From contig OY282432.1 in the NCBI GenBank assembly GCA_958295985.1, forward strand, positions 3,133,001 to 3,197,000: DNA of 64,000 bases, read 5' to 3'. The first letter of the stretch is position 1. Each line of letters opens with the position of its first letter. The position numbers were made by a program, and so were the translations under genes. Below the pieces are notes generated by a model that saw only the letters and a list, made by a program, of their open reading frames with translations, ran no database searches and was not told where the DNA came from. The stretch is from an uncultured Candidatus Binatia bacterium. Its GTDB lineage: Bacteria > Desulfobacterota > Binatia > UBA9968 > JAJDTQ01. Positions 20,225 to 49,351 of this stretch are shown piece by piece.

Positions 20225-21352
20225 CTATTGCAGACTGTAGAGTCTCGCGCTGTTGTCCCAGAAGATCTTGCGCTTCGACGATCCGCGGAGCCCGTCGATC
20301 TTGAGGAAGCTGTCCACCGCTTCCGGCCACCGCGAATCGGAGTGGGGGTAATCCGTCGAGATCACGATGTTGTCGTCCCCGATCCTGCCGACCACATCCG
20401 CCACCAGATCCTCCTCCACGTCCGTGGCGATGTAGCATTGGCGTAGGAAGTACTCGCTGGGATTCAGCGAAAGCGGCGTGTCGCACAGGTCCTTGCGCAA
20501 CTCCCAGCGCTCGTCGAGCCGGTAGAGGACCCACGGCAGCCAACTGCAGTTGCCCTCCAGAAAGGCCACCCTCAAGCGCGGAAACCGCTCCAGCACGCCA
20601 CCGCCGCAGAAACTGCCCACCGCCAGCATGAGCTCGACGGGATTGCGATAGGCGTTGACCAGGATGCCTTCGTTGGGCAGACCCTTGAAGCGCTGGGCCA
20701 CCTGGTCCATCCCGGGGTTGGCCGCCGGGTGAAAGCAGATGGGAACGTCCAGACGCTCCGCCTCGCGCCACAGCGGGTCGAAGCAGCGCTCGTGGATGTG
20801 GCGGCCGTTGGCCGGCTCGGGCACCAGGCACAGGCCGATGGCGCCGAGCTCGGTGACCGCGCGACGGGTCTCGTCCACGGCCATGTCGACATCATGGAGG
20901 GTGATCAGCGCTGAGGGCTTGAGCCTCTCGGTGTTCTCCTTGCAGAAGTCCGCCACCCACTCGTTCCAGGCGCGGCACAGGGCGTTGGCGTACTCCGGCT
21001 CCAGACGGTCGTCGCAGTGGAGCGGGAAGGTGCGGAACAGCACCGCCACGTCCAGACCTTCCACCTCCATGGCCTCCACCTGCGACACGGCATCGTAGTT
21101 TCTTGCCAAAGGCCTGGTGTAGCGATGCGCTACCTTGTCCTCGCCCGGGGTCACGTTGGGTTGCGCCGTAAGCCCGGACTCCCGCACCTGCGCACCGTCG
21201 CCGAACTTGAACTTGACCTGACCATGGCGCTTCCTCGGCTCCCCTCTGGGGATCCGGTCGCCCCATTTGGGGTCCATGTAGTTGAGATAGAGATCATGCG
21301 GCTCGAAGACGTGCATGTCGCTATCGAAGATCTTGAAGCCGTTTCGCGCCAT
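20225..21352 (-). CDS. Amidohydrolase family 2 protein (A1)
   Basis: 375 residues from ATG 21352, chosen because AAAGGAG lies 9 bases upstream; the frame reaches 21385. ACMSD/gamma-resorcylate decarboxylase superfamily: a metal-dependent TIM barrel. Metal ligand candidates are Asp/His in FDSDMH (residues 9-14), His in CFHPAANP and Asp in STDYPHSDS near 334. The C-terminal signature KIFWDNSARLYSL is shared by most paralogues here. It is the closest relative of A5 (29429) and A6 (33162), sharing LYLNYMDPKWGDRIPRG and ROADVE-like barrel segments such as VAFLEGNCSWLPW. Reaction (decarboxylation or hydrolysis) and substrate unknown. Confidence 0.93.
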   Translation of the reverse strand: MARNGFKIFDSDMHVFEPHDLYLNYMDPKWGDRIPRGEPRKRHGQVKFKFGDGAQVRESGLTAQPNVTPGEDKVAHRYTRPLARNYDAVSQVEAMEVEGLDVAVLFRTFPLHCDDRLEPEYANALCRAWNEWVADFCKENTERLKPSALITLHDVDMAVDETRRAVTELGAIGLCLVPEPANGRHIHERCFDPLWREAERLDVPICFHPAANPGMDQVAQRFKGLPNEGILVNAYRNPVELMLAVGSFCGGGVLERFPRLRVAFLEGNCSWLPWVLYRLDERWELRKDLCDTPLSLNPSEYFLRQCYIATDVEEDLVADVVGRIGDDNIVISTDYPHSDSRWPEAVDSFLKIDGLRGSSKRKIFWDNSARLYSLQ

Positions 21353-21406
21353 GGTCGGGACTCCTTTGCCTCGCGCCCGCGCCACCGTGGCCCGGGACGG
21401 TTTCCG

Positions 21407-21559
21407 CTAGTGTCCGGTGAGGATCTTCCGTGCCGCCTTGCGCCACTTCTTGAGATCCTTGGCCTCTTCCATGGCAGGCGCGTTCCAGATCAGCTTGACT
21501 CCGGCTCCGCGCACCCTTTTGGCGGCGTCGGTCTGGGCGCTGGGACCCAACCGGCGCAT
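21407..21559 (-). CDS. 50-residue ORF of unknown function, possibly a gene remnant
   Basis: Reading from ATG 21559 gives about 50 residues ending VKLIWNAPAMEEAKDLKK and then WRKAARKILTGH before TAG. The composition is natural-looking (amphipathic, charged) and unlike a random shadow, but the start lies directly after an in-frame TGA and no ribosome site is evident. It may be the C-terminal scrap of a lost gene between the CoA transferase and amidohydrolase A1. Not recognised. Confidence 0.3.
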   Translation of the reverse strand: MRRLGPSAQTDAAKRVRGAGVKLIWNAPAMEEAKDLKKWRKAARKILTGH

Positions 21560-21617
21560 ACCACATCACGAAAAATCCGGTCAAGCGATCCGCGGCAGCC
21601 GTCCAGCCCCCGCGTCG

Positions 21618-22808
21618 CTAGATCGTTCCTGCTTCGGCGAGTTGGTCGATCCGTTCCTGGCTCAGCCCCAGTTCCCGGAGGATCTCGGCGGTGTGCTCGC
21701 CCAACTCCGGCGGCAAGGCCGAGACCTGGAACGGCGTATCGCTCAGGTTGACGCCGCTCCTGACCGTGTGAATGGTACCGTGTTTCGGATGTTCCAGCTC
21801 CATGATCCGGTCCAGGTGCTTCACCTGAGGGTCGTCGAATACCTCGTCGAGCCGGTTGATGGGAGCGTTGGCCACATCGTGTGCGCTCAGCGCCTCCAGC
21901 CAGTGCTGCCTGGGCCGGGTCTCGACGATGTCCTGCAGCAGGGCCTTGAGGGCGTCGTAGTTCGCCAAACGGTCCTCACGATCCCGGAACCGGGGGTCGT
22001 CCGCCAATTCTGGATGCTCGATGGCCTGGGCGAGGCTCACGAAGAACTTGTTCAGGTGCGAGAGGTGGATGACGAACGGCAGTCCGTCCCCCGCCAGCAG
22101 CGCGTAGACCCCGGCGGAGCGCCCTCGGCTCTCCACGTCCGGAACGTCCCCGGTGGCGAAATACTGAAGGATGCTGCGGCCGATGAACGCCATGGAGGCC
22201 TCCATGAGGGAAGTCTCCACCTTCTGGCCCTTGCCGCTTCTCTCCCGGGCCATCAACGCCGTGAGGATGCCGTAGCAGGCGAACATGCCCCCCAGGTGGT
22301 CCGAGAAGGCCAGGCCCGGCGGCCGAGGCGTGTTGGGATCGATGATCTGACTCAAGAGGCCGGTGAGGCACTGTCCGAGGGTATCGAAGCCCGGTCGTTC
22401 GCGGTAAGGCCCGGTCTGCCCGAACGCCGATATGCCGCAGTAGACAAGACGCGGGTTGAGGTCCCTGAGCCGCTCGTAACCGAGCTCCAGCCGGTCCATC
22501 ACTCCCGGCCGGAAATTCTCCACCACGACGTCCACCTCCGCCGCCATCCGGAGAAAGAGAGCCTTGCCTTCCGGATCACGCAGGTTCAGGGTCATGCTCC
22601 GCTTGTTGCGGTTGTAACTGCGGAACAGCGGACTGTACATGCGCGGCTCCTGCCCCCACTTGCGAAAGGGATCGCCGCCGTTCGTGTTCTCGATCTTCAC
22701 CACCGCAGCTCCCATGTCCGCCAGCAACATGGCCGCGAACGGGCCGGCGATGTAATTGCTGAGATCGAGAATCCTGATGCCGTCGAGAGCTTGTGTCATG
22801 GGTTCCAT
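21618..22808 (-). CDS. CaiB/BaiF family (class III) CoA transferase
   Basis: 396 residues. Family features: N-terminal LDGIRILDLSNYIAGPFAAMLLADMGAAVVKIE, VENFRPGVMDRLELGYE, CGISAFGQTGPYRERPGFD, and FSDHLGGMFACYGILTAL, whose Asp matches the position of the catalytic Asp that carries the acyl anhydride. It ends ...EILRELGLSQERIDQL, normal for the family. It moves CoA between carboxylic acids in the cytoplasm, activating a substrate for further breakdown. It is divergent from A2, with a near-palindrome between them. Confidence 0.95.
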   Translation of the reverse strand: MEPMTQALDGIRILDLSNYIAGPFAAMLLADMGAAVVKIENTNGGDPFRKWGQEPRMYSPLFRSYNRNKRSMTLNLRDPEGKALFLRMAAEVDVVVENFRPGVMDRLELGYERLRDLNPRLVYCGISAFGQTGPYRERPGFDTLGQCLTGLLSQIIDPNTPRPPGLAFSDHLGGMFACYGILTALMARERSGKGQKVETSLMEASMAFIGRSILQYFATGDVPDVESRGRSAGVYALLAGDGLPFVIHLSHLNKFFVSLAQAIEHPELADDPRFRDREDRLANYDALKALLQDIVETRPRQHWLEALSAHDVANAPINRLDEVFDDPQVKHLDRIMELEHPKHGTIHTVRSGVNLSDTPFQVSALPPELGEHTAEILRELGLSQERIDQLAEAGTI

Positions 22809-22843: not shown

Positions 22844-22864
22844 GAGTCAAAGGCGCCTTGACTC
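22844..22864. promoter_or_regulatory. Near-perfect palindrome between divergent CoA transferase and A2
   Basis: GAGTCAA-N7-TTGACTC, with the centre AGGCGCC itself almost symmetrical, lies 36 bp from the CoA transferase start and 60 bp from the A2 start. It is a candidate operator controlling both divergent genes. Confidence 0.4.
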
Positions 22865-22923
22865 ACGAGACTACCGAAGGTATTCGGGTTGAGCAGCCGA
22901 AGGCCTCGGGAAGGGAGATTGCG

Positions 22924-24060
22924 ATGAAGAACGGACTCAAGATCATCGACTCCGACATGCACATCATGGAGCCGCCGGACCTTTGGGAGAACTATGTCGA
23001 CACGCCGTTCAGGCAGCACGCGCCGCGTGTCGTCAACGTTCCGAGCCGGGGCGACTTCAATCTGCTCCTGCTCGACGGCAAGGAACCCCGCGCCAAGAGC
23101 CCGTCGCTGGCCAACGACGCGCGCATGATCGGCAAGCGGCGCCAGTCCACGCGCGAGGACGTGATCAGCTTCGCACGCGCCCAGGGCTTCAACGCCAAAT
23201 CCCAGATCGAGGCCATGGACATCGAGGGCCTGGACGTGGCGGTGCTGTTCCCCACCGCCTGTCTGCACATCATGACCGTGCCGGACATGGACCCGCTGCT
23301 GGCGGAGGCCATTTGCCGGGCCTACAACAACTGGCTCTACGACTTCTGCCAGGAGGACCCCGCACGGCTCAAGGGCGCCGCCATGCTGCCGCCCCACGAC
23401 GTCTCCCTGGCCATTCGGGAAGCCCGGCGCGCGGTGCAGGAGTTGGGCTTCGTCACCGCCTTCCTGCGGGCTACGCCCCTTCCCGGCGACACCTGGTTCG
23501 GCCTCTACTGGGAACCGCTGTGGGCAGAGATGGAGGAACTGGGGATGCCCGTGGGCTTCCACGAGTGCACCAACTCCGGCTACTACCCCCACATCGAGCG
23601 CTTCGGCCAGAACAACCGCCTCATGCGCCACATCTGCAGCCACGTCACCGGCCAGATGGTCACCATGGTGGACATCATCGTGGGCGGCGTGCTGGAACGC
23701 TTTCCGGAGCTCAAGGTGGCGTTTCTCGAATGCAACTGCGGCTGGGCGCCGGCCTGGCTGAGCCGCATGGACACCCACTGGAGCCAGTTGGGCGCCGCGG
23801 ACGCCCCCATGCTCACCATGAAGCCCAGCGAGTACTTCAAGCGCCAGTGCGTCATCGGATGCGAGGGCGAAGAGCGCGAGGTCGGCGCGGTCATCCAGTT
23901 GATGGGCGACGACAACATCGTCTTCTCAACCGACTATCCCCACAGCGATTCGGAGTTCCCCCACGCGGTGGACGCCTTCATGCAACAGGAGCTGCCGGTG
24001 GAGAATGCGCGCAAGATCCTGTGGGACAACTGCGTCAAGTTCTACGGCATCGAAGCGTAG
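22924..24060 (+). CDS. Amidohydrolase family 2 protein (A2)
   Basis: 378 residues; ATG 22924 preceded by AAGGGAG. An in-frame extension to 22858 lacks a ribosome site. Putative metal ligands: IDSDMH (8-13), GFHECTNS, and Asp in STDYPHSDSEF near 336. It shares with A3 the opening MK-GLKI-DSDMH--EP-DLW and the segment SH-MSN/TGQMV-MVDII-GGVLER-P-LKVAFLEC, placing both in one subgroup separate from A1/A5/A6. It is transcribed away from the CoA transferase, so a CoA-ester or acid intermediate may be its substrate; this is inference. Confidence 0.93.
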   Translation: MKNGLKIIDSDMHIMEPPDLWENYVDTPFRQHAPRVVNVPSRGDFNLLLLDGKEPRAKSPSLANDARMIGKRRQSTREDVISFARAQGFNAKSQIEAMDIEGLDVAVLFPTACLHIMTVPDMDPLLAEAICRAYNNWLYDFCQEDPARLKGAAMLPPHDVSLAIREARRAVQELGFVTAFLRATPLPGDTWFGLYWEPLWAEMEELGMPVGFHECTNSGYYPHIERFGQNNRLMRHICSHVTGQMVTMVDIIVGGVLERFPELKVAFLECNCGWAPAWLSRMDTHWSQLGAADAPMLTMKPSEYFKRQCVIGCEGEEREVGAVIQLMGDDNIVFSTDYPHSDSEFPHAVDAFMQQELPVENARKILWDNCVKFYGIEA

Positions 24061-24153: not shown

Positions 24154-24480
24154 CTACGCCTGCAGCAAGCGTCGCTCCAGCAAAGCCTGCATGTCACGCC
24201 GCCGATCGGCAATGACCAGCACGTTCACGTTGTTCTCGGTCACCCGGTAGATGATCCGGTAGAGCTTGAAGAAAACTTCACGGTACTCTCGAATTCCGAT
24301 ATCCAGCAATTCGTTCGGATGACGTCCGCGCTGGAGTTGTTCGGAAAGGCTGCTGAAAGCCTTTTCAATTCGCTTCAGCACATCATCGGCACGACCCGGT
24401 GAATCATGCCGATCGATGTCATTGCAGATCTCCTCCAGGTCACGCGCCGCATCATCGCTCAACCGCACCAGGAAGGGCAT
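24154..24480 (-). CDS. RelE/ParE family toxin
   Basis: 108 residues. MPFLVRLSDDAARDLEEICNDI is the typical ParE/RelE opening, followed by helices around SLSEQLQRGRHPNELLDIGIREYREVFFK and the core strands YRIIYRVTENNVNVLVIADRRRDMQALLERRLLQ. The ATG overlaps the antitoxin stop in TAATG, so translation is coupled. RelE members cleave mRNA on the ribosome and ParE members poison gyrase; the sequence alone does not decide between them. Cytoplasmic, acting with the Phd/YefM partner. Confidence 0.9.
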   Translation of the reverse strand: MPFLVRLSDDAARDLEEICNDIDRHDSPGRADDVLKRIEKAFSSLSEQLQRGRHPNELLDIGIREYREVFFKLYRIIYRVTENNVNVLVIADRRRDMQALLERRLLQA

Positions 24481-24755
24481 TAGCGGGCCTGCCGGCGCTC
24501 CCGAAGCCGCGCGATGACCTCGGCGGCGGACTGCATCCGACCCGATTCGACCTGAGCGTTTCCCATTGCGAGAATCTTGAGCAGGGCAACTGTCTCCTGC
24601 GTCTGCTCATAGCTGTCGATGTCCTGCACGACCACCTTGGCTTCACCGTTCTGGGTGATGATCAGGGGTTCCCGTCGGTCTCCGAGCGTGCGAATGATCT
24701 CGGCAGCGTGAGCCTTGAGGTAGCTGATGGGCTTGATCTGGCTGGATAGTTTCAT
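24480..24755 (-). CDS. Phd/YefM family antitoxin
   Basis: 91 residues from ATG 24755, with GGAGG 6 bases upstream; the open frame to 24791 is not used. MKLSSQIKPISYLKAHAAEIIRTL and PLIITQNGEAKVVVQDIDSYEQTQETVALLK are diagnostic of the Phd/YefM fold. It binds and neutralises the toxin and represses its own operon. The promoter upstream overlaps a perfect palindrome (24771-24788), a likely binding site for this protein. Confidence 0.92.
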   Translation of the reverse strand: MKLSSQIKPISYLKAHAAEIIRTLGDRREPLIITQNGEAKVVVQDIDSYEQTQETVALLKILAMGNAQVESGRMQSAAEVIARLRERRQAR

Positions 24756-24770
24756 GGGTCGCCTCCACGT

Positions 24771-24807
24771 CAGACTAAATATAGTCTGCAAACGGGTCCA
24801 ATGGCAA
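24771..24807 (-). promoter_or_regulatory. Toxin-antitoxin promoter with embedded operator
   Basis: On the minus strand a -35 box TTGCCA (24807-24802) and -10 box TATATT (24783-24778) are 18 bases apart. The -10 sits inside the perfect palindrome CAGACTA-AATA-TAGTCTG (24771-24788), 16 bp before the antitoxin start. This is the expected layout for autorepression by a Phd/YefM dimer. Confidence 0.7.
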
Positions 24808-24890: not shown

Positions 24891-25997
24891 TTAAAGATCA
24901 TACAGCCGGGCGCAGTTATCCCAAAGGATCTTCCGCTTGGTTTCCCTGGAGACGCCTTCGACCTCCAGGAACTCTTCCACGGCGTGGGGAAAGTCCGAGT
25001 CCCCGTGGGGGTAATCCGTCGAGTAGACGATGTTGTCGTCGCCGATGAGCTCGGCGACCATGGGCAGCTCCTTTTCCGACTCGGTGGATATCCAGCATTG
25101 CCGCTTGAAGAACTCGCTGGGCTTCAGCTCCGAGATGTTGGGGTTCCGGGCCTTGGCCACGGCGCCGTCCATGCGGTGCAGCATGAACGAGACCCAACCG
25201 CAGTAGCATTCGAGGAAAGCCACCTTCAGCTTGGGGTGGCGCTCCAGCACTCCACCGCCGATGATGTCGATCATGGCCATCATGTTGGACATGGGGTGCT
25301 CGCAGATGTGCCGCAGCAGCAGGTCGTCGCCGAACACGTCGCCCATCTGCCGGACCTCGCCGGCGGAAGCGGCGGAATGAAAGCCCATGGGGATTCCCAA
25401 CTCCTCCAGAGTGGACCACAGGACATCGTAGTAGCGGGAATGCCAAGGCAGGGACCGGAGCGGCTCCGGGCGCGCGAACACGGCCACGAAGCCCAGATCC
25501 TCCACCGCCCGCCGGGCCTCCCTGGCAGCCTCGGTGACGTCGTGGAGGGAGATCATGGCCGCGCCCTTCATCCGGCGGGGGTCGGTCCGGCAGAAGTCGT
25601 GGAGCCAGTTGTTGTAGGCCCGGGCCACCGCGGCGCCGAGCTTGGGTTCCATGTCGTCGCGCATCATGACCCCCAGGCCGATGGACGGATACATGACGGC
25701 CAGGTCGAGTCCCTCCTTCTCCATGGCATCAAGCTGCGACACGCCGTCGAAGCCCCGTGCCCGGGCGTCCGCGATCTCCGAGTCGATGCGCGTGGCGTCG
25801 AAGATGCCGCCGCGGTAGGCCGGCGGGTAGCCCTTGAGGATCTTGCCGTCGACCATGACCATGGCCGAGCTGCGGGTGGTGGTGCTCAGGATCCTGGGCC
25901 CCCGGTCGCGCCACTCGGGCTCCATGTACTTCTCCCACAGGTCCGCGGGCTCGCGCACGTGCATGTCCGAGTCCATGATCTTCAATCCGTCTTTCAT
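24891..25997 (-). CDS. Amidohydrolase family 2 protein (A3)
   Basis: 368 residues from ATG 25997 (GGGGAGAGGAC just upstream; the frame opens at 26027). Putative ligands: MDSDMH (8-13), GFHSAASAGE, and Asp in STDYPHGDSDF near 328. The C-terminus KILWDNCARLYDL is the paralogue signature. Subgroup with A2 by the shared opening and by MIDIIGGGVLERHPKLKVAFLECYCGW. It lies 36 bp downstream of A4 on the same strand, so A4-A3 form an operon, probably preceded by the epimerase at 27564. Its stop abuts the tRNA-like remnant. Confidence 0.93.
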   Translation of the reverse strand: MKDGLKIMDSDMHVREPADLWEKYMEPEWRDRGPRILSTTTRSSAMVMVDGKILKGYPPAYRGGIFDATRIDSEIADARARGFDGVSQLDAMEKEGLDLAVMYPSIGLGVMMRDDMEPKLGAAVARAYNNWLHDFCRTDPRRMKGAAMISLHDVTEAAREARRAVEDLGFVAVFARPEPLRSLPWHSRYYDVLWSTLEELGIPMGFHSAASAGEVRQMGDVFGDDLLLRHICEHPMSNMMAMIDIIGGGVLERHPKLKVAFLECYCGWVSFMLHRMDGAVAKARNPNISELKPSEFFKRQCWISTESEKELPMVAELIGDDNIVYSTDYPHGDSDFPHAVEEFLEVEGVSRETKRKILWDNCARLYDL

Positions 25998-26033
25998 GTC
26001 CTCTCCCCTGCTTGCATCGGTTGTCAAAGCGAC

Positions 26034-27500
26034 CTATAGGCCGGCCCGGAGCCGGCTCGCCGCCATCACCCGGGCTGCCGCCTCCTCACACGCGGTGCCG
26101 GCAAAGAAATCCGGGTTCACGCCGGCATAGAAGCGCACCGCGTTGGTGAAGCTGAAGTCGCGAAAGTCCTCTTCGGTGATGTGCCCCCGGTCCACCAACT
26201 CGTGGGCCTCTGCCACCACCTCGGTCATGTCGGTGACGTCCCAGTGGCCGATGTCCGAGCTCATCATGGCGCCGAGCCGGGCGCCGAAGGGATTGAGCTT
26301 GTCGTTGAAGGCCCAGGCGATCATACGGTCGTCGGCCTCGCAGCCGAAGTAGAAGCGCGGCACGAAGCGGTCGCGGATGTCCTCCGCCCTCTCGATGCCG
26401 CACCGGGACCAGTCGTCGAGGACCTCGGGCCGGCGCTGCTTGCGGCCGAGCGAAGCCCGGATCCGGCCGAGCTTCTCCTCGCTTTCGATGCCGCCGTACT
26501 CCGCCACGAGCTTCATCATGAGGTCGACGTCGAGGCTCTCCGGGTCCAGCGCGGCGATGGCATCCCGGTTGCGCTTCTCCCAGTGCTCCAGGATGTCGCT
26601 GTACAGGCCGCACGCCCACCCGACCCCACACTCCAGAAAAGCAAAGTTAAGCATCGGAAAGCGATACGTAACCCCGCCGAAAAACAAGGCTTTGCACATG
26701 GCCTCGCCGGCTGCAGCGAAGTGGCCGATGTGGTTGTACATGTAGTTGGACACCGAGCGCCGGCTGCCCCAACCCTGGCCGCTGGCGTGGGACGTCGGCG
26801 CCACGCCCAGCTCCAGGCAACGCTGCCAGAACGGATCGTAGTCGTGGTCGCTGTCCAGGGCCAGGGTGTCGATGTAGCGGGCGAAGGGCGCCAGGTCCGG
26901 CCGCTCCTTCCGTACCCGCGGGATGGGACGGTCCACGTGGGAGATGACGATGGTCTTGAGACCCAACTCGCGGACGGCGTACTCGGTGTCCTCGATGGCC
27001 TCTTCCGGTGTATGAGTGGGAATCACCGCAGCCGGGGTCATCCGGTCGGAGCATTCGCCGTAAAATTCCGCGTGGAACTTGTTCAACGCGCGACAGGATA
27101 CCCGGCGCAGCTCCTCGTCCTCGAACCGGGGCGGGCCGCTCAACCCCTCGGTGGGATAGAGCACGGCGAAATCGAGTCCCAGCCGGTCCATTCTCTCGTG
27201 CAGCAGGCGCGGCAACGACGCCGTGGCCCGGTCCAGGGTGTTGCGCGCCGGACGCGCCCACCAGGGCGGGCAATGCGCCCGGACGTTGCGACGCTCAACC
27301 TCGGTCATGGAGGACCAGCGACTGTTGGACCGGGCGCTCATGGCTCGGGCGTAGCGATGCGGCATGTCGGCGCCGCCCAACTCCTTCAGGTAGTCGAGGT
27401 AGAGCGGGGTCAGCTCGACGGTGTGGCCGTCGGTGTCGATGACCGGATGGTCGAGCCGGGCGCGGACCGCTTCGGATTCGAAGGTCTGTCCTGAACTCAT
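26034..27500 (-). CDS. Amidohydrolase family 2 protein, long form (A4)
   Basis: 488 residues, about 110 longer than its neighbours. ATG 27500 was chosen over the preceding in-frame GTG. First-strand motif VIDTDGHTVE near residues 20-28. The Asp motif near the end is SSDIGHWDVTDM instead of STDYPH. It ends FRDFSFTNAVRFYAGVNPDFFAGTACEEAAA, resembling a branch of large amidohydrolase-2 proteins. Extra length lies in the N-terminal third (RARWSSMTEVERRNVRAHCP-type segment) and around residues 330-400. Upstream on the same strand, 64 bp away, is an NAD-dependent epimerase. Confidence 0.9.
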   Translation of the reverse strand: MSSGQTFESEAVRARLDHPVIDTDGHTVELTPLYLDYLKELGGADMPHRYARAMSARSNSRWSSMTEVERRNVRAHCPPWWARPARNTLDRATASLPRLLHERMDRLGLDFAVLYPTEGLSGPPRFEDEELRRVSCRALNKFHAEFYGECSDRMTPAAVIPTHTPEEAIEDTEYAVRELGLKTIVISHVDRPIPRVRKERPDLAPFARYIDTLALDSDHDYDPFWQRCLELGVAPTSHASGQGWGSRRSVSNYMYNHIGHFAAAGEAMCKALFFGGVTYRFPMLNFAFLECGVGWACGLYSDILEHWEKRNRDAIAALDPESLDVDLMMKLVAEYGGIESEEKLGRIRASLGRKQRRPEVLDDWSRCGIERAEDIRDRFVPRFYFGCEADDRMIAWAFNDKLNPFGARLGAMMSSDIGHWDVTDMTEVVAEAHELVDRGHITEEDFRDFSFTNAVRFYAGVNPDFFAGTACEEAAARVMAASRLRAGL

Positions 27501-27563
27501 CACTCGCTTCCCTTTTCGTGCGGTTCCCCTTGCGCGCCGGGTCCATGCCGGCGCGCCGCGGCG

Positions 27564-28514: not shown

Positions 28515-28668
28515 GCCGGGCAATCTAGCATGGACGGCGCGGGGTTGGGAGAGGGGCGCGACTGGCGTGGATTTTGCTCACTTGCATGACGTTCAAGGAA
28601 CCCTGGGCTGGTAAGGGAACTGAGTCAGCAGCCGTTACAGAACGAGGAATCGCGGAGGTGAAACAGTC

Positions 28669-33127: not shown

Positions 33128-33161
33128 CAACGTCTCTCCTATCGAAAACGCCCTCGGCTGC

Positions 33162-35154: not shown

Positions 35155-35226
35155 GACCCCTCGGCGCCTGGCGGCGGATGCCAATATCAAACGGATTCTG
35201 GTAAATTTGCAGTCCAGGGCGGCCTC

Positions 35227-36226: not shown

Positions 36227-36252
36227 GGATTCCCGTTTTCGCGGGGATGACG
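36227..36252. repeat. Family R2 palindromic repeat (copy b)
   Basis: GGATTCCCG-TTTT-CGCGGGGATGAC, imperfect arms, between the convergent argC and TauE/SafE genes. A second GGGGATGACG follows within 20 bp, suggesting a partial tandem unit. Confidence 0.6.
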
Positions 36253-36327
36253 GAGGGAGGCGCGGGGATGACGGTTTCGGGGCCTGTCGCCATTTCGTAC
36301 AAACCAGGGACTCGGAGTGTCCGTCTC

Positions 36328-37071: not shown

Positions 37072-37122
37072 TTCGACAAATCAGTGTCAGGGACCGGAGG
37101 CCGGGTCAAGCCCGCGACCGCG

Positions 37123-37148
37123 GGCGCCGGCGTCATCGTACCGGCGCC
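37123..37148. repeat. 8-bp inverted repeat in TauE/ABC divergent region
   Basis: GGCGCCGG (37123-37130) and CCGGCGCC (37141-37148) flank a 10-base spacer, 107 bp before the binding-protein start. It could be an operator or hairpin; no promoter can be placed with confidence. Confidence 0.3.
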
Positions 37149-37254
37149 ACGGGCTCTTGCGCTCATAACTTCATCCAGAGTAATGTGCGGCTGTCACAAG
37201 CCCGGACGGAAACAAGGGCTATCAGACCGAACCGGCAACAAGGAGGATTTTGCC

Positions 37255-38832: not shown

Positions 38833-38874
38833 CCGCGAGCGAGAGGAGATTCCGGCTCACAACCGCGGGGTTCG

Positions 38875-41701: not shown

Positions 41702-42676
41702 TCAGAACAGGTGGCAGGCCACCTCCCGCTCCGGGGCCACCTCCCGGAGCCTCGGCTCCTCTTCCGCGCACCGGGGCATGGCCAAGGGACAACGCGGGTG
41801 GAAACGGCAGCCGGAGGGTGGGTTCATGGGGTTGGGGACCTCGCCCGCCAACACGGTCTCGCCGGACTCCTGTCCCGGCCGGACCGGCAGGGCGGCGGCG
41901 ATGAGCGCCTGGGTGTACGGGTGCAGGGGGTCCGCGTAGAGCGTGTCGGCCTTGCCTTCCTCGACGATCCTTCCCAGATACATCACGGCGACCCGGTGGC
42001 TCAGGTGCCGGGACACGGCCAGGTCATGGGTGATGAGCAGGTAGCTGAGGCCGTGCTCGTCCTGGAGGTCTTTCAGCAGGTTGATGATCTGGCTTCGGAT
42101 GGATGCGTCGAGCGAGGCCACGGGCTCGTCCAGGACGATCAATCGCGAATGGGTCGCCAGCGCCCGGGCCAGGGCGATACGCTGCCGTTGCCCGCCGCTG
42201 AACTCGTGGGGATAGAGCCGGGCGAAGGCCGCGTCGAGGTTGACGTCCTTCAGGACCTCCGCCACCCGCTCGCCCACTGCCTGCCGCGACAGCCCGGCGT
42301 TCACCACCAGCGGCTCGCCGACGATGTCGCCCACGCGCATCCTGGGGTTGAGCGAGCTCTGGGGGTCCTGGAAGACGGCCTGCACGGTGCTCCGGTACTG
42401 TTGCAGGTCGCTGCCCGCCATCCGTTCCAGGCTGACCCCCTGGTAGAGGATCTCACCGCCGGTGGGGCGCTCCAGCAACAAGACCATCCTGGCCGTGGTG
42501 CTCTTGCCGCAACCCGACTCCCCTACCAGTCCCAGGGTCTCGCCGGCGTCGATGTGAAAGCTGACCTCCTCCACCGCGCGGACCCAGCCGACGTTGCCGC
42601 CAAGGATCAACCCCTTGGTGACGGGGAAACGCTTACTGACGTTCCTGGCTTCCAGCAGGGTGGTGTCGCGTTTCAT
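41702..42676 (-). CDS. ABC transporter ATP-binding protein, DppF/OppF type
   Basis: 324 residues from ATG 42676 ([19 protein letters not shown]). The apparent extension upstream is translated repeat R3b. Walker A is [16 protein letters not shown], the Q-loop is followed by signature [16 protein letters not shown], Walker B is [12 protein letters not shown], the His switch is LLITHDLAV, and the oligopeptide-transporter C-terminal [22 protein letters not shown] segment is present. It works with the DppD-type ATPase 150 bp upstream and the permeases at 38.9-40.7 kb, although the ATPases are on the opposite strand. Confidence 0.96.
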
Positions 42677-42819
42677 GGACGGGCTCGTGAAGACGTGCAG
42701 AAATTCTTGCCGCCGGCAAGACGCGACCACGAGCAGCGGCCGGTACCACGCGCGGAGGAGCCACGCAGCCGGCGGCGAGGAGGACCGGCAGACTCGCAAG
42801 CGCATCCGTGAAACGCGAC
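42665..42819. repeat. Structured repeat R3, copy b
   Basis: The core 42714-42792 is the ungapped relative of 40827-40905. Its flanking arms 42665-42691 and 42793-42819 are complementary at about 21 of 27 positions (GTCGCGTTTCA / TGAAACGCGAC outermost) but share no sequence with the arms of copy a. The left arm includes the start codon region of the DppF-type gene, so the right arm is an inverted near-copy of that gene's first codons. It fills the gap between the two ATPase genes. Confidence 0.75.
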
Positions 42820-42820
42820 G

Positions 42821-43828
42821 CTAGGTTTCATGCTCGTCCTTCGCGTGCAACCAGCAGGCTACGCTGTGGCCCGGGTCGAGCCGGGTCTCCGGCGGGGCCT
42901 CGGACCGGCAGATTGCCATGGCCCTGGGGCAGCGGGGCGCGAACGCGCAGCCGGGGGGCAGGTCGTAGACCAGCGGCGGACTCCCCTCGATGGACGGGAA
43001 CCGGTGGACCTTGCGGTCCATGCGCGGGATGGACTGCAGCAACGCTTCCGTATAGGGGTGCGCGGGACGTTCGAAGAGCGCCTCCACGGTCAGTTGCTCC
43101 ACGATCTTGCCGGCGTACATGACCGCCACCCGGTCACAGATCCGCGCCAGGGTGCCCAGGTCGTGGGTGATGTAGATGATGGACAGGTTCGATTCCTGCT
43201 GAAGCTCCTTCAGCAGCCGCAGGTACTGGGCCTGGATGGTGACGTCCAGGGAGGTGGTGGGCTCGTCGGCGATGAGGACCTTCGGCCCGGCCGAGATGGC
43301 GGTGGCGCCCACCACCCGCTGGCGCATGCCGCCACTGAACTGATGGGGATAGTCGTTCAGGCGGGATTCCGGCGCGGGGATGCGCACGAGGCTCAGAAGC
43401 TTCGAGACCCTTTCCCGGATTCCGGAACGCGGCACGACGCGGTGGACCCGCAACGGTTCGGCCACCTGGCCGCCGATGGAGAACACCGGATTCAGGGTAC
43501 TCAGGGGATCCTGCAGGATCATGGCGATCCCGCGGCCCCGGACCCGGCGCATCTCCTGCTCCGATATCCGCAGCAGGTCCCGCCCCTGAAACAGCACCTG
43601 ACCGGAGACGATGCGCCCCGCGGGTCCCGGCACCAGCCGCAGGATGGAGAGGCTGGTCATGCTCTTGCCGCAGCCCGACTCGCCCAGCAGTCCCAGGGAT
43701 TCTCTCTCGTTCAGGGTGAAGGAGACGCCGTCCACGGCCTTGCCCGTTCCCCACCGGGTGAAGAAGTGCGTCCTCAGGTCCTTGACTTCGAGCAACGGTC
43801 CGGACGGAGCGTTGGAGTCGGTATCCAT
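42821..43828 (-). CDS. ABC transporter ATP-binding protein, DppD/OppD type
   Basis: 335 residues from ATG 43828, preceded by AAAGGAACC; longer in-frame starts lack ribosome sites. Walker [18 protein letters not shown], signature [15 protein letters not shown], Walker [13 protein letters not shown], His switch YITHDLGTL, and the C-terminal [22 protein letters not shown] region of peptide-transporter ATPases. It is upstream partner of the DppF-type subunit; repeat R3b separates them. The gene is divergent from amidohydrolase A7. Confidence 0.96.
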
Positions 43829-43892
43829 GGGGGTTCCTTTACGGAGCACGGGCATCTTGACACAAAAACCGCGGTAGTAGTAACCACGGGTC

Positions 43893-45083
43893 ATGGAAGA
43901 TTTCACCAACACACTGGTCATCGACGCGGACGGTCACGTCAACGAGGGCGACATCGACTTCAAGCCCTGGCTGCCCGAGAAGTACAAGTCACTGGCGCCA
44001 GTGCGGCTCAAGGACAACCGCGGCGGCAACCGACTGCTGCTGGAGGGCCGCATCTGGCCCGCCAACGAGGGTCCCGGGCCCGGAGTGACGGGCCCCATGA
44101 CCGAGGAGGCGCGAAAGGGCCGCCCGGGAATGACCGACCCCAGGGAACGCCTCAAGGACATGGACCTGGAGGGCATCGACGTGGCCGTGATCTTCGGCAC
44201 GCAGATCGCCCTTACGGTCAACGGCCTGATGGACAAGGGCCTCGCCGGGGCGCTCTGCCATGCGGTCAACCAATGGCTGCTGGAATACTGCTCCGCGGAC
44301 CCGCGGCGGCTGCGCGGCGTGGGCCTCATTCCGTGCCAGGACCCGCCCGAGGCGGTGCGGGAGCTGCACTACCTGGCCGAGCACGGCGCCGCCACGGCCA
44401 TGCTCCCCACCAACGTTTACGGCCGCAACATGGGCGATCCCATGTTCGATCCCATCTACGCCGCCGCCCAGGAGATCGGTATGCCGCTCTCGGTCCACCC
44501 GCAGACGGGGCACGACGGCGTTCCCGGGGTGTCCGGGGTCATGGGCGCCGGGAGCCGGCGCTTCTACAAATACGTCTATGTCCACATGACCGCCTTCCCC
44601 TTCGAGCTGATGATCGCCATGATGCACATGCTCGGCGAAGGCGTGTTCGACCGCTATCCCCGGCTGAAAGTGGCCTACATGGAAGGCGCTGCGGGTTGGC
44701 TGCCCTTCTGGATGGAGCGTTTCGACGAACATATGGAGAAACTGGCGCCGCAGATGCCCGAGATGCGGCGGCGTCCCAGCGAGGTCATCCGGAGCAAACA
44801 GCTCGTCCTGTCATGCGAGTCCGAGGAAACCGGACTGGACCGGGTGCTGGACGCTTCGGGACCGGCCACCGTGCTGTACGCCTCGGACTACTGTCACTGG
44901 GACTGCCACTTCCCCTACTCCGTCAGGGACGTCATCTCGGGCAACGACCTGAGCTTCGCCCAGAAAGAGCGGGTGCTATACCAGAACGCCGTCGAGTTCT
45001 TCGACCTGAAGAACCTGCCGGAACCCAGGGCCCTGGCTTCGGCCACGGGCACGTGGGACGTCGGACACAACGGAGAAGCGTAG
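43893..45083 (+). CDS. Amidohydrolase family 2 protein (A7)
   Basis: 396 residues from ATG 43893 (no clear ribosome site). First-strand motif VIDADGHVNEGD (residues 9-18), SVHPQTGHDG as the central His region, GEGVFDRYPRLKVAYMEGAAGWLPFWMERFDEH, and the late Asp in YASDYCHWDCHFPYSV near 353. The late motif has Cys-His rather than Pro-His after Asp-Tyr. It is a different subgroup from A1-A6. The gene is divergent from the ABC ATPases and followed by a maleate isomerase-type gene 37 bp downstream, with which it probably forms an operon. Confidence 0.93.
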   Translation: MEDFTNTLVIDADGHVNEGDIDFKPWLPEKYKSLAPVRLKDNRGGNRLLLEGRIWPANEGPGPGVTGPMTEEARKGRPGMTDPRERLKDMDLEGIDVAVIFGTQIALTVNGLMDKGLAGALCHAVNQWLLEYCSADPRRLRGVGLIPCQDPPEAVRELHYLAEHGAATAMLPTNVYGRNMGDPMFDPIYAAAQEIGMPLSVHPQTGHDGVPGVSGVMGAGSRRFYKYVYVHMTAFPFELMIAMMHMLGEGVFDRYPRLKVAYMEGAAGWLPFWMERFDEHMEKLAPQMPEMRRRPSEVIRSKQLVLSCESEETGLDRVLDASGPATVLYASDYCHWDCHFPYSVRDVISGNDLSFAQKERVLYQNAVEFFDLKNLPEPRALASATGTWDVGHNGEA

Positions 45084-45120
45084 GCACCCGTCCGTGAACG
45101 CGGAGTCAGGGAGGAACGCC

Positions 45121-45831
45121 ATGGAAAACCACGCACGCATCGGCCTCATCATTCCGTCGGCCAACCGGCTGACCGAGCCGCAGTTCAACCGGTACGCACC
45201 CGTGGACGTGGATATCCACGTAACCCGGCTCCGCATGACCGGAGAATGGCACAAACCGCTTGCGGAACTGCGGGGAGCAATCGAAGAAGCGGCGCGCGCG
45301 GTGTCCGACACCGGGCCGGACATCATCGTGTTTCATTGCACGGCAAGCTCGATGGAGGACGGCCTCGCCGGAGAGGAGCGCGTCACCGAATGGATCAGCC
45401 AAGCCGGCGGCTGCGCCGCCATGACCACCAGCCAGGCCGTCACCGAGGCGTTGAACGCGCTCACGGCGCGGAAGCTCGTGCTCATCAGCCCCTACGTGGA
45501 TGAGACGAACCAGTCGGAACTGCGCTACATGACGGAAGCCGGCTTCGAGGTGATCCACGAGCTGGGGCTGGGACTCCCCGGAAGCGACGCCTATATCGCG
45601 GTCACCCCGGAGCAATGGCTGGACATCGTTTGCGACAACAGCCGGCCGGAGGCCGAAGGCTACTTCCTGAGTTGCACCAACACGCGCATGATCGAGATGA
45701 TCGAAGCCGCCGAGAGCCGCCTGGCCCGTCCCATGGTGTCCAGCAACCAGGCGACGTTGTGGGCGTGCCTGCGGCGAATGGGCCGCTCGACGTCGATCCC
45801 GGGTCTCGGGCGCCTCTGCGCCGAAGGCTGA
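45121..45831 (+). CDS. Maleate cis-trans isomerase / Asp-Glu racemase family protein
   Basis: 236 residues; GGGAGG precedes ATG 45121. RIGLIIPSANRLTEPQFNRYAP is the family opening. The two catalytic Cys positions are intact: VFHCTASSMEDG (near residue 74) and FLSCTNTRMIEMIE (near 185). The closing RPMVSSNQATLWACLRRMG also matches. It isomerises or decarboxylates small dicarboxylates such as maleate or arylmalonates in the cytoplasm. Located directly behind A7, it may act on that enzyme's product or substrate. Confidence 0.92.
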   Translation: MENHARIGLIIPSANRLTEPQFNRYAPVDVDIHVTRLRMTGEWHKPLAELRGAIEEAARAVSDTGPDIIVFHCTASSMEDGLAGEERVTEWISQAGGCAAMTTSQAVTEALNALTARKLVLISPYVDETNQSELRYMTEAGFEVIHELGLGLPGSDAYIAVTPEQWLDIVCDNSRPEAEGYFLSCTNTRMIEMIEAAESRLARPMVSSNQATLWACLRRMGRSTSIPGLGRLCAEG

Positions 45832-45947: not shown

Positions 45948-46017
45948 CGGTCAAGGGCACCGTCCGTGCTTCCGCGCGTTCCGACCCGCGGTGCCGATTC
46001 TCCAAGGAGGCAATCCC

Positions 46018-47109
46018 ATGGCAGGAGTCATTGACGCCGATACGCACATCGCCGAGCCCGAGTCGATGTGGAAGTTCTTCGACGAGGACCTGTACCCGCG
46101 CCGGCCGGTGCTGACGTCGATTACCGACGACACGCTGTACGGGACCCGCAACAAGTTCTGGCTCATCGACGGCAACATCTTCCCGAAACCCTCCGGCAAG
46201 GGTGGTTTCAGGCTGGTGACGCCGACTGCCGCGACCTCGGAATCGGAACGGGACGACAGTCTCATCGCCAGCCGCGAGATAACCGACGTCGACGTGCGGC
46301 TGAAGGACATGGACCGCCTGGGCATCGAGACCCAGGTGATCTACCCGACCCTGTTCCTCATCTATCTCACCGACGACGTGGACCTGGAGATCGCGCTGTG
46401 CAAGGCCTACAACCGCTACATGTGGGAGATCGAGGAGAAGGGCCGGAAACGGCTCCGCTGGAACGCCGTGCTTCCCCTGGGCTCGGTGGACGAGTCGGTG
46501 AAGGAGATGCGGCTGGCCAAGGAACACGGCGCCGTGGGTATCTTCTTTCGCGGCATGGAGGGGGAACGGACCCTGGACGACCCCTACTTCTTTCCCGTGT
46601 ACGAAGAGGCCAACTCGCTGGAGCTGCCCATCTGCATCCATACGGGCTCGGGATGCCCCACCCTCACCAACATGTTCGACCTCGAGCGGAACCACACCTT
46701 CGCCCACGGCAGGGTGCTGCCCATCTTCGCCTTCCGGGACCTCATCCACAACCGGATACCGGAGATGTTCCCGAAGCTGCGGTTCGGGTTCATCGAGGCG
46801 TCCGCGGGCTGGGTGCCGTTCATGCTGCACATCCTGCGTCGCCTGCTCAAGCAGCAGTTCAAGTTCGAGTCCAGCGTGGAGCTGTTCCGGAAGTACCGCC
46901 TGTTCGTGGCCTGCGAGGCCGACGAGGACATCCCGTACCTGATCCGCTACATGGGCGAGGACAACATCATCATCGGCTCCGACTACGGCCACACCGATCC
47001 TTCGTTCGAACCGGAGCTGGCGCAGACCATCCGGTCGCGGGAAGACCTGTCGCCGGCCATCGCCGACAAGATCCTGTGCGAGAACCCGAAGCAGCTTTAT
47101 TCTTTTTGA
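46018..47109 (+). CDS. Amidohydrolase family 2 protein (A8)
   Basis: 363 residues from ATG 46018, preceded by AAGGAGG. Motifs: VIDADTHIAEPESMW (4-18), ICIHTGSGCPTLTNMF for the central His, IEASAGWVPFMLHILRRLLK, and the late Asp in GSDYGHTDPSFEPEL. It closely resembles A9 (shared RRPVL, LYG-RN-FWLIDGNI-PKP, SLIASREIT, GAVGIFFRGMEG), showing tandem duplication. This DxDTH-GSDYGH subgroup is distinct from the others. It ends 37 bp before the A9 start. Confidence 0.94.
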   Translation: MAGVIDADTHIAEPESMWKFFDEDLYPRRPVLTSITDDTLYGTRNKFWLIDGNIFPKPSGKGGFRLVTPTAATSESERDDSLIASREITDVDVRLKDMDRLGIETQVIYPTLFLIYLTDDVDLEIALCKAYNRYMWEIEEKGRKRLRWNAVLPLGSVDESVKEMRLAKEHGAVGIFFRGMEGERTLDDPYFFPVYEEANSLELPICIHTGSGCPTLTNMFDLERNHTFAHGRVLPIFAFRDLIHNRIPEMFPKLRFGFIEASAGWVPFMLHILRRLLKQQFKFESSVELFRKYRLFVACEADEDIPYLIRYMGEDNIIIGSDYGHTDPSFEPELAQTIRSREDLSPAIADKILCENPKQLYSF

Positions 47110-47146
47110 GGTGTCCGGCCGCCGTGACGAACGAGAGCCGCGTCCC

Positions 47147-48244
47147 ATGATGATCATCGACTCCGACACGCATATCGCCGAACCCCTCGCCATGTGGGAC
47201 CACATGGACGAGGGAATGTATTCGCGCCGGCCGGTGCTCGCCTCGGTGCCCGAGGATACGCTCTACGGCCCCCGGAACGCTTTCTGGCTCATCGACGGCA
47301 ACATCGTGCCCAAACCCAACGGCAAGGGGAGCTACCGTCTGGTCACGCCGTCGGCCACGAAGCTGGAGTCATCGCGCAGCGACAGCCTCATTGCCAGCCG
47401 CGAGATCACCAGGCCCGAGGTCAGGTTGGCCGACATGGACCGCCTCGGCATCGACGTCCAGGTCATCTATCCGACGCTCTTCCTGGTCTACCTGACCCAC
47501 GACGCCGAGTTGGAAGTCGAACTGTGCCGGGCCTACAACCGCTACATGTGGGAGGTGCACCGCACCGGGCAGAACCGGCTGCTGTGGACCGCGGTGCTGC
47601 CGCTGCTCTCCATCGAAGCCTCCATCGACGAGATGCGGCTGGCCAAGGAACACGGCGCCGTGGGGATCTTCTTTCGCGGCATGGAGGGGGACCTCACCCT
47701 GGACAACCCCTACTTCTTCCCGGTCTACGAAGAGGCCGCCAGGCTGGACCTGCCCATCTGCATCCATACCGGCATGGGGGCGCCGTCGATGATCAACCTG
47801 TTCAGCTTCGAGCGGAACTTCTCGTTCGCCCAGGGCAGGATCCTTCCGGTGTTCGCCTTTCGCGACCTGGTGGCGAACCGCATACCCGAGGAGTTTCCGG
47901 GCCTGCGCTTCGGCTTTATCGAAGCCTCGGCGGGCTGGGTGCCGTTCATGCTGCACGTCCTGAAGCGGCTTCTCAAGAGCGACTGGAAACACAGGTCGGA
48001 CAAGGGTCTGTTCGAGGACTACCGCCTGTTCGTCGCCTGCGAGGCCGACGAGGACGTCCCCTATCTCGTGGACTACATCGGCGAGGACCATATTCTCATC
48101 GGCTCGGACTACGGCCACCAGGACCCCTCCCACGAGCCCGAGCTGACCGCCACCCTCCGCGGCCGGGAGGATATCCCGGAGCGAGTGGCCGACAAGATGC
48201 TGAGCGACAACGCCAAGCGGTTCTACGGGATCGGGGAACCGTAG
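47147..48244 (+). CDS. Amidohydrolase family 2 protein (A9), tandem duplicate of A8
   Basis: 365 residues from ATG 47147; an in-frame GTG at 47111 could add 12 residues. Motifs: IIDSDTHIAEPLAMWDHMDEG, ICIHTGMGAPSMINLF, and late Asp in GSDYGHQDPSHEPEL. It is near-collinear with A8 with no large insertions. Both keep every expected metal-site residue, so both are probably active, perhaps with different side-chain specificity. Confidence 0.94.
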   Translation: MMIIDSDTHIAEPLAMWDHMDEGMYSRRPVLASVPEDTLYGPRNAFWLIDGNIVPKPNGKGSYRLVTPSATKLESSRSDSLIASREITRPEVRLADMDRLGIDVQVIYPTLFLVYLTHDAELEVELCRAYNRYMWEVHRTGQNRLLWTAVLPLLSIEASIDEMRLAKEHGAVGIFFRGMEGDLTLDNPYFFPVYEEAARLDLPICIHTGMGAPSMINLFSFERNFSFAQGRILPVFAFRDLVANRIPEEFPGLRFGFIEASAGWVPFMLHVLKRLLKSDWKHRSDKGLFEDYRLFVACEADEDVPYLVDYIGEDHILIGSDYGHQDPSHEPELTATLRGREDIPERVADKMLSDNAKRFYGIGEP

Positions 48245-48289
48245 GCCCTGCCTCGTCGCTACCCCGCTTCAGAACGAAAGGAGAATCCC

Positions 48290-49351
48290 ATGCGCGCGAA
48301 CGCATTTCCGGTCATCGACGGTGACGGACACATCATGGAGAACGCCAGCGAGATGATGCCGTTCATGGGCGAGAAATACGTGGGCAGCGACGGGCAGCCC
48401 GCCTGGGCCCGCATGTACTCGCTGTTCCCGTCGCTGGACGGATGGACCCGATTGTCGAACATGAGCTCTTCCGGGCTCAGAGACTACCCGGACTGCGACA
48501 TGTGGGTATCGTTCCTGGACGACTGCGGCATCGACCGGACCATCGTCTATCCCACCGCGGGCCTCGGGTTCGGGCTGATCCAGGACCCGGCCTACGCCGT
48601 CAACATCGCCCACGCGTACAACACGTGGCTTCACGACTACTACATGAAGCAAACATCCAGGGTCCTGGGCGCGGCGTTGATCCCGGTGCACAGCGTCGAT
48701 GACGCCGTCAACGAGATGCGGCGCGCCAAGGAGGAGCTGGGCATGCCCGCCGCCGTGCTGCCCTCGGTGAACTCTCTGGGCAAGGGCTACGGCCACGAGA
48801 GCTTCTTCCCCATCTACGAGGAAGCCTGCCGTCTGGACATGGCGCTGGCCATTCACGGGGCGCCCAGCCGCGGCCTCGGGTTCGACTACCTCGACAGCTT
48901 TGCGGAGGTCCACGCGCTGGAGCATCCGATCCCGCTGCTGATTCACCTGACCAACATGGTGTTTCAGGGTGTGTTCGAGCTCTTTCCGGACTTGCGCGTC
49001 GCCTACCTCGAGGCGGGCGCGGGCTGGGTGCCGTTCATGATGGACCGGCTGGACGAGGGCTACGAGCGGCGCGGCAAGAAATGGGCGCCCCGGTTGAAAC
49101 GCTCACCCAGCCAATACATCAAGAGCGGCAGCGTCTACGTCTCCGTCGAGTCCGAGGAACGCACCCTGCCCTTCGTCATCCAGCTTTTCGGCGAGGACCA
49201 TATCTTCTTCGCGTCAGACTATCCCCACGAGCGCCCGCGCGAGGAATACCTCAAGGATATTCCGGAACTGGCGGCGAGAGAGGACGTCTCGGACACGGCC
49301 AAGCGGAAGATCCTGGCCGGCAACGCGAACCGCTTCTACCAGCTGAATTGA
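48290..49351 (+). CDS. Amidohydrolase family 2 protein (A10)
   Basis: 353 residues; GAAAGGAG 6 bases before ATG 48290. Motifs: VIDGDGHIMENASEM (8-22), LAIHGAPSRGLGFDYLDSF, VFELFPDLRVAYLEAGAGWVPFMMDRLDEGYERRG, and late Asp in FASDYPHERPREEYLKDI. It is a third subgroup within the A8-A10 operon. Its stop TGA lies inside the -35 box of the promoter for the following gene. Confidence 0.94.
   Translation: MRANAFPVIDGDGHIMENASEMMPFMGEKYVGSDGQPAWARMYSLFPSLDGWTRLSNMSSSGLRDYPDCDMWVSFLDDCGIDRTIVYPTAGLGFGLIQDPAYAVNIAHAYNTWLHDYYMKQTSRVLGAALIPVHSVDDAVNEMRRAKEELGMPAAVLPSVNSLGKGYGHESFFPIYEEACRLDMALAIHGAPSRGLGFDYLDSFAEVHALEHPIPLLIHLTNMVFQGVFELFPDLRVAYLEAGAGWVPFMMDRLDEGYERRGKKWAPRLKRSPSQYIKSGSVYVSVESEERTLPFVIQLFGEDHIFFASDYPHERPREEYLKDIPELAAREDVSDTAKRKILAGNANRFYQLN

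Follow-up and report, generated by a model that had tools for sequence, protein, structure and literature searches.

Ten clustered amidohydrolase-like genes of a Candidatus Binatia bacterium as putative dinuclear oxygenases within a genome-wide expansion

The DNA considered here (the window, a stretch of 64,000 nucleotides, G000:C1:3133001-3197000) comes from the 4.29-Mb genome of an uncultured Candidatus Binatia bacterium (G000), and its positions 20225 to 49351 carry ten genes, A1 to A10, whose products belong to the Pfam family PF04909 (Amidohydro_2). All ten score above the Pfam gathering cut-off (34.8 to 121.8 bits against 26.4, the lowest being A4 at 26034-27503), which bears out the ten amidohydrolase-2 genes in 29 kb announced by a sequence-only reading of this DNA. 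Their metal-site residues and phylogeny lead us to lean toward the view that they are clustered amidohydrolase-related dinuclear oxygenases (AROs) and part of a genome-wide hyper-expansion of such proteins. The ARO name (2024), definition, and structures are those of PMC10811679, according to which AROs are so far a handful of enzymes. The ARO-type site is recognized by six ligands in the order D-x-H, H, E, and D-x-x-H. As the same reading had described, the ten genes are mixed with genes for a CoA transferase, epimerases, and transporters:

20225..21385, minus strand: A1, PF04909; six-ligand ARO-type site with D23, H25, H219, E277, D345, and H348, then D350 (own frame)
21618..22808, minus strand: CoA-transferase family III, between A1 and A2
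22858..24060, plus strand: A2, PF04909; six-ligand site, acid at His+2
24154..24791, minus strand: ParE/Phd-type toxin-antitoxin pair, between A2 and A3
24891..26027, minus strand: A3, PF04909; six-ligand site
26034..27503, minus strand: A4, divergent PF04909 protein of 489 aa (34.8 bits); six-ligand site
27564..28523, minus strand: NAD-dependent epimerase/dehydratase-like protein, 61 bp from A4
29429..30544, minus strand: A5, PF04909; six-ligand site
30613..31683, minus strand: second NAD-dependent epimerase/dehydratase-like protein
31754..33130, minus strand: 458-aa protein with a GHSTGG motif
33162..34358, minus strand: A6, PF04909; six-ligand site; nine-residue in-frame deletion ahead of the Glu ligand relative to orthologues
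34466..34969, minus strand: flavin reductase-like protein (PF01613)
35071..36183, plus strand: semialdehyde dehydrogenase-like protein
36247..40681, plus strand: peptide-type ATP-binding cassette (ABC) importer, a family-5 solute-binding protein and two permeases
40954..41670, plus strand: first Amdase (PF17645) protein
41702..43921, minus strand: two ABC ATPases with an oligopeptide-transporter C-terminal domain
43893..45083, plus strand: A7, PF04909; six-ligand site
45094..45831, plus strand: second Amdase (PF17645) protein, 11 bp after A7; its nearest NCBIfam model is EutA, under the cut-off of that model
45991..47109, plus strand: A8, PF04909; six-ligand site
47111..48244, plus strand: A9, PF04909; six-ligand site; 2 bp after A8
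48290..49351, plus strand: A10, PF04909; six-ligand site; Glu at His+1 and no acid at His+2

The ligand classes were read from MAFFT alignments, the ligand alignment combining 98 proteins of G000, 97 proteins of a SAR202 genome (G042), and nine references. The Asp-x-Asp-x-His motif that the sequence-only reading attributed to all ten array proteins is invariant in 10 of 10, and D21, D23, H25, H219, E277, D345, and H348 (A1 numbering) are among the residues conserved in every one of them. The six ARO ligands are thus complete throughout the array, and the last His is followed by an acid, located at His+2 in nine proteins and represented in A10 by the Glu at His+1. The same six ligands and an acid at His+2 are present in the seven reference structures PtmU3, DitZ, AibH2, SfbO, 8sm7, 8sm8, and 8sm9 but not in ACMSD, which displays an HxH motif and a His replacing the Glu ligand; ACMSD-type ligands of this kind occur in none of the ten array proteins. 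The first Asp of the motif is a Ser in PtmU3 (S-A-D-S-H) and DitZ and hence lies outside the shared ligand set. Published ligand assignments agree with this picture: those of AibH2 (D25, H27, H211, E265, D337, and H340, with the nearby acid D342, which its mononuclear relative AibH1 lacks; PMC7782822) match conserved columns of the ten, and those modelled for the oxidative decarboxylase LynB7 (D11, H13, H197, E252, D320, and H323, then D325; PMC10127204) correspond to the array set.

Beyond the window, the genome has 98 PF04909 matches (97 above the cut-off), of which 80 bear the six ligands, 13 are of the HxH type, and 5 are other; among the 80, the acid is found at His+2 in 59, at His+1 in 14, and at neither position in 7. 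The SAR202 genome presents six ligands in 84 of 97 proteins, 7 HxH proteins, and 6 others, with the acid of the 84 at His+2 in 56, at His+1 in 18, and at neither in 10. As a control, we took six genomes of the same phylum, picked for few copies, and used 40 of their 43 PF04909 rows (dropping two partial matches and one below the cut-off): the six ligands occur in 0 of these 40 proteins, 23 of which are HxH and 17 other. As far as the controls reach, the expansion therefore concerns one class and not PF04909 at large.

Phylogenetic trees were built with FastTree and IQ-TREE, the former on 201 sequences after three fragments were dropped. A single branch separates 26 of the 30 non-six proteins, all HxH proteins included, without a six-ligand intruder (FastTree support, 0.987; IQ-TREE approximate likelihood ratio test [aLRT], 99.5); the four non-six proteins falling outside that side in the FastTree tree are partial or have lost ligands. 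The complementary six-ligand clade (FastTree, 0.986) has 175 leaves, including those four proteins and all seven references, and ACMSD and a 2,3-dihydroxybenzoate decarboxylase lie outside it in both trees. Within it, the subgroups proposed by the sequence-only reading were recovered: A1, A5, and A6 form a clade (FastTree, 0.999; IQ-TREE aLRT, 99.8), as do A8 and A9 (0.993 and 99.3, respectively), A2 and A3 fall into one four-leaf group (IQ-TREE aLRT, 92.7), and A4, A7, and A10 stand apart in the FastTree tree. At a deeper level, A1, A2, A3, A5, and A6 belong to one 19-leaf clade together with ten SAR202 proteins (FastTree, 0.978; IQ-TREE, 96.9). The phylogeny upholds the ten as an expanded array of several subgroups, all in the six-ligand clade with the seven references and part of the genome-wide set of 98 matches; their common ancestor spans 170 of the 201 leaves (165 with IQ-TREE).

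Comparisons with known structures point in the same direction. A profile of A1 to A10 searched against Protein Data Bank (PDB) sequences placed PtmU3 (2.1e-56), 8sm7, DitZ, 8sm9, SfbO, 8sm8, 4dzi, and AibH2 above every decarboxylase. PtmU3 was likewise the best PDB match of A10 (2.6e-30) and of two further six-ligand paralogues; in such single-sequence searches, decarboxylases are mixed among the lower-ranking oxygenases. One HxH paralogue of the same genome found ACMSD as its best match (4.5e-25). The AlphaFold2 model of A5 (mean predicted local distance difference test score of 94.6, from 33 sequences) retrieved PtmU3 first in a Foldseek search (template modelling scores of 0.82/0.85), followed by DitZ, with ACMSD in fifth place. 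These data bear on the hydrolysis or decarboxylation that the sequence-only reading had envisaged, which in its usual PF04909 form would be the work of ordinary mononuclear enzymes of the ACMSD or gamma-resorcylate decarboxylase type. We regard such chemistry as quite improbable: the Pfam family and fold are shared and ACMSD appears in the fold search, but all ten proteins carry the six ARO ligands and the HxH type lies outside their clade in both trees, so that an array of ordinary decarboxylases was rejected on ligands and trees. Decarboxylation by an oxidative route is nonetheless conceivable for the array, given that LynB7 is described as an oxidative decarboxylase.

The array is a local cluster within the genome-wide hyper-expansion of six-ligand (ARO-type) proteins, which make up 80 of the 98 matches. 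Neighboring matches are separated by gaps of <5 kb in 30 instances against 10.3 expected, and the density of the array is beyond chance, as no more than 9 genes fell within 29 kb when 98 genes were distributed at random over the genome 2000 times. A binning artefact was ruled out because all 98 matches reside on one 4.09-Mb contig and because a single-contig genome of the same genus (G003) also has at least 116 PF04909 matches (121 of 131 candidates scored). Recent tandem amplification was likewise dismissed as the main cause: a paralogue in the same genome with ≥60% identity exists for just 19 of the 80 six-ligand proteins, and the median identity to the best such paralogue is 50%, which indicates that most paralogues are old. 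At least 125 matches were counted in another genome of the same order, at least 78 in a Rokubacteria genome, and at least 17 and at least 41 in two Dehalococcoidia genomes. When 148 genomes were drawn from the same phylum, 20 or more first-look PF04909 candidates were seen in 8 of the 141 genomes listed (scoring limited to 15), G000 being among them with 109. The 2.8-Mb SAR202 genome (99 PF04909 rows, corresponding to 97 genes) is an outlier among 59 genomes drawn from its own order, with 99 first-look candidates, the next highest having 52.

The Binatia and SAR202 sets share all of the large supported subclades. There are eight of these (5 to 41 leaves; support, ≥0.9), and each contains members from both G000 and G042 (4/8, 18/23, 4/4, 19/22, 3/1, 2/5, 9/10, and 9/10, respectively); together they take in 68 of 81 G000 leaves and 83 of 87 G042 leaves. 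For 25 of the 80 six-ligand proteins of G000, a SAR202 gene outscores every paralogue in their own genome. Between the 80 and the 84 proteins there are 29 reciprocal best hits with a median identity of 56% (maximum, 76%), suggesting gene transfer between phyla or very old shared paralogues. A broader proposition, which we put forward only tentatively, is that bacteria of the Binatia type and SAR202 Chloroflexota share about 80 dinuclear oxygenases per genome (2 to 3% of the genes, as estimated from genome size), constituting an overlooked oxygenase arsenal for diverse organic acids. Among the papers listed in searches of the open-licence literature, we found no report of an ARO-type expansion in these groups; two of the papers listed, on fungal gene families, contain the term PF04909. 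The word "amidohydrolase" is absent, by term search, from the main texts of two SAR202 papers (PMC6946804 and PMC10444878, the latter on cultivation) and two papers on Binatota (PMC8262859 and, for sponge Binatota, PMC9999580); Binatia are placed in Candidatus Binatota. The SAR202 expansions described by Saw et al. 2020 are of flavin monooxygenases, enolases, and ring-hydroxylating dioxygenases (PMC6946804). COG3618, assigned to lactone and sugar-acid use, figures among abundant SAR202 paralogues in PMC10444878 and is an amidohydrolase group according to the title of a reference, so that the abundance of another PF04909-related branch in SAR202 has been noted before.

Several observations weigh against the oxygenase reading, beginning with the supply of electrons. 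A small Rieske protein adjoins the AibH2-like gene in 90% of 555 cases (the AibH2-like proteins found in UniProt reference proteomes with a strict filter in 2023; PMC10401708); G000 has 19 Rieske matches (13 in frames of 409 to 561 aa), none of which, by position, shares an operon with a six-ligand gene. The smallest distance between a Rieske gene and a six-ligand gene is about 1.4 kb (beside 3765845), and the translated frames around that Rieske gene, which include cytochrome b and a multihaem protein, place it in a cluster of the cytochrome bc type. FNR- and GR-type reductases (families PF00175 and PF14759) gave 0 matches in this genome. The seven six-ligand proteins of G000 without an acid after the last His resemble mononuclear AibH1 in this respect; 6 of the 8 large subclades have no reference structure, a reference being present in 2; and the proximity of ACMSD to the oxygenases in the fold search of A5 means that fold alone cannot separate the two chemistries. 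Finally, a grouping of A7 with AibH2 and SfbO (FastTree, 0.916) was not recovered by IQ-TREE, and we therefore make no claim on the placement of A7.

The missing Rieske partners and reductases of G000 are also an argument for the main rival explanation, that these are dinuclear enzymes with two Zn or Mn ions that hydrolyze, hydrate, or isomerize related acids and depend on neither O2 nor a reductase. An oxygenase is not required by partners of the amidase, Amdase, or epimerase type, and among characterized PF04909 enzymes a single Zn and nonredox reactions are the commoner condition (PMC10401708). Against this, PtmU3, AibH2, SfbO, and LynB7, with the same ligand set, are described as oxygenases, and the four proteins studied in PMC10811679 are redox-active. 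We consider nonredox dinuclear chemistry unlikely on this evidence, if to be taken seriously, and oxygenases the better explanation of the ten genes. A flavin reductase-like protein encoded at 34466-34969 is a possible candidate electron source. Furthermore, COX1 was found in each of three genomes tested (G000, G003, and G042), which makes O2 respiration likely in these organisms.

The oxygenase reading draws directly on the ligand set, the clade membership, the confident fold model of A5, and the purifying selection and conservation of the locus described below; from these we infer an oxygenase function, with two bound metals, O2 chemistry, substrates, and an electron donor as its corollaries. 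By analogy with SfbO, AibH2, and PtmU3, each array protein would be a TIM barrel holding two metals (Fe2 or Mn/Fe) by D-x-H, His, Glu, and D-x-x-H, with the acid after the last His tuning metal site 2. The reduced dinuclear center would bind O2 to generate a high-valent intermediate that oxidizes a C-H bond, the outcome being hydroxylation or oxidative decarboxylation, with each paralogue presumably acting on a single small acid or acyl-CoA. The products could then be passed to the adjoining catabolic genes, which encode dehydrogenases, isomerases, CoA transferases, and importers; the CoA transferase beside A1 and A2 would fit CoA-linked substrates, as for PtmU3. If a six-ligand site does mean an oxygenase, the two genomes G000 and G042 add 164 candidates, most of them from subclades that contain no reference structure, and the amidohydrolase annotation would have led to a misreading of what these bacteria oxidize. 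Uncultured aerobes of two phyla would then possess, hidden under that label, an arsenal for dissolved or host-derived organic acids and a large overlooked capacity to oxidize organic matter, comparable to the P450 or Rieske expansions seen elsewhere. Individual purified proteins would allow this claim to be tested directly.

Judged by ligands and phylogeny, the array appears to belong to a known class, its novelty probably lying in the scale and in the absence of the usual redox partners. The closest relative by structure is PtmU3, the diiron monooxygenase of platensimycin/platencin biosynthesis (PDB 6omp), which shares the six ligands and, with nine of the ten, the acid at His+2. Its identity to A5 over the aligned folds is 25%, no protein of the window belongs to its supported subclade, and it serves antibiotic biosynthesis on CoA-linked diterpenes (PMC10127204, PMC7782822). 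AibH1H2, the 2-aminoisobutyrate monooxygenase of Rhodococcus, is encoded in one cluster with a Rieske ferredoxin and a ferredoxin:NAD+ oxidoreductase (PMC7782822), whereas for the array the searches gave neither a Rieske partner nor a PF00175 or PF14759 reductase. SfbO and three related AROs (PDB 8sm6-8sm9) have the ligand set of the array and, together with AibH2, form a clade of their own (FastTree, 1.0); this group was discovered via adjoining Rieske genes (PMC10811679), which the array lacks. The oxidative decarboxylases LynB7 and BarH, likened to the array by published ligands only, differ in serving cyanobacterial natural-product biosynthesis (PMC10127204). ACMSD shares the PF04909 family and fold but has HxH and His instead of D-x-H and Glu; gamma-resorcylate decarboxylase, which shares family and fold as well, was not among the tree sequences. 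For DitZ, no activity report was found among the literature matches listed, as judged by title. In another locus (L123:4992-6113 and L123:6224-7327), two six-ligand genes, one with the acid and one without, are neighbors on one strand, a pair resembling AibH2 with its mononuclear partner AibH1.

The order of all ten genes, and of almost all of their neighbors, is kept in the same-genus chromosome G003, where the A1 to A10 products are 90 to 95% identical. The dN/dS values against G003 are 0.06 to 0.16 for the ten and 0.09 to 0.20 for nine neighbors, so that the locus is conserved and the ten genes are under purifying selection. This leaves little room for neutral accumulation, in which the paralogues would be redundant or decaying copies kept by chance and which we consider very improbable. 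Two cases would suit it: the nine-residue deletion in A6, and frame 3586812 of G000, which has lost ligands. The A6 deletion lies between FCAGG and VAFLEGN, and the residues concerned are present in the orthologues of L001, L009, and L225; the frame is open, and because the missing residues directly precede the Glu ligand, this copy could be defective, or the sequence could be misassembled at this point. The low dN/dS of all ten genes in a preserved order, the median of 50% identity to the best own paralogue, and the lack of a stop inside any of the 98 matches all speak against decay.

Conservation of the neighborhood was found in part. Besides the full order in G003, parts of it recur in four further closely related metagenome-assembled genomes (MAGs; L001+L018, L002+L020, L009+L016, and L017). 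A5 orthologues are 94 to 97% identical in Candidatus Binatia MAGs (L001, L002, and L003) and 95% identical in a Deltaproteobacteria bacterium MAG (L009); several MAGs with close A5 orthologues presumably come from sponges. More distant homologues (37 to 54%) occur in Rokubacteria, SAR202/Dehalococcoidia, and other MAGs. At five loci with A1 or A5 homologues at 69 to 72% identity (L012, L015, L021, L022, and L050), only ABC permeases recur (in 3 of 5, at 39 to 46%). The same loci, together with the breadth of the common ancestor of the ten and the diversity of operon partners described next, weaken the suggestion of the sequence-only reading that the array encodes a single modular pathway.

Operon partners were taken from a gene table made with our own gene picker, which uses third-position G+C and missed 6 of the 98 matches and 4 of the 80 six-ligand genes. 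The remaining 76 six-ligand genes yielded 82 partners, of which 81 were used (one of >1000 aa was left out). No family is dominant among them: Cupin_2 (4), Amidase (3), major facilitator superfamily (3), Epimerase (3), and Amdase (3) are accompanied by 102 other families, none of which has more than three members. A same-strand neighbor within 120 bp is lacking for 23 of the 76 genes. Rieske is absent from the 25 of these 107 families that were listed. As the six-ligand copies adjoin unrelated catabolic genes, we interpret them as the entry enzymes to numerous small pathways and not to a single one. With regard to Rieske proteins in general, the 13 oxygenase-sized Rieske frames of G000 likewise have no PF00175 or PF14759 reductase match in the genome. 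In G042 there are two PF00175 matches and 37 Rieske rows, of which 33 fall in frames of >400 aa; these long frames agree with the report of ring-hydroxylating dioxygenases in SAR202 group VII (PMC6946804).

Within the array itself, three groups of genes look like operons: on the minus strand, A6, the 458-aa protein gene, an epimerase gene, and A5 and, further on, an epimerase gene, A4, and A3; and on the plus strand, A7, the Amdase gene, A8, A9, and A10, with a gap of 160 bp between the Amdase gene and A8. NCBIfam has no family for A2, A4, A5, A7, A8, or A10, the six array proteins that were searched against it. Relative to the window, the stretch from the epimerase gene to A5 is longer by about 7 kb in G003 (L225-L226, C1 about 198.6-205.7 kb) and that from the flavin reductase gene to A6 by about 4 kb, and no match to the ParE/Phd pair was found in the syntenic region of G003. 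The SAR202 locus L048 contains, within 21 kb, distant homologues of the epimerase (36%), Amdase (35%), and CoA transferase (33%). Searches of Pfam, NCBIfam, and PDB sequences gave no match for the 458-aa protein (31754-33130); its GHSTGG motif suggests an alpha/beta-hydrolase, and its gene stays beside the epimerase gene in close relatives.

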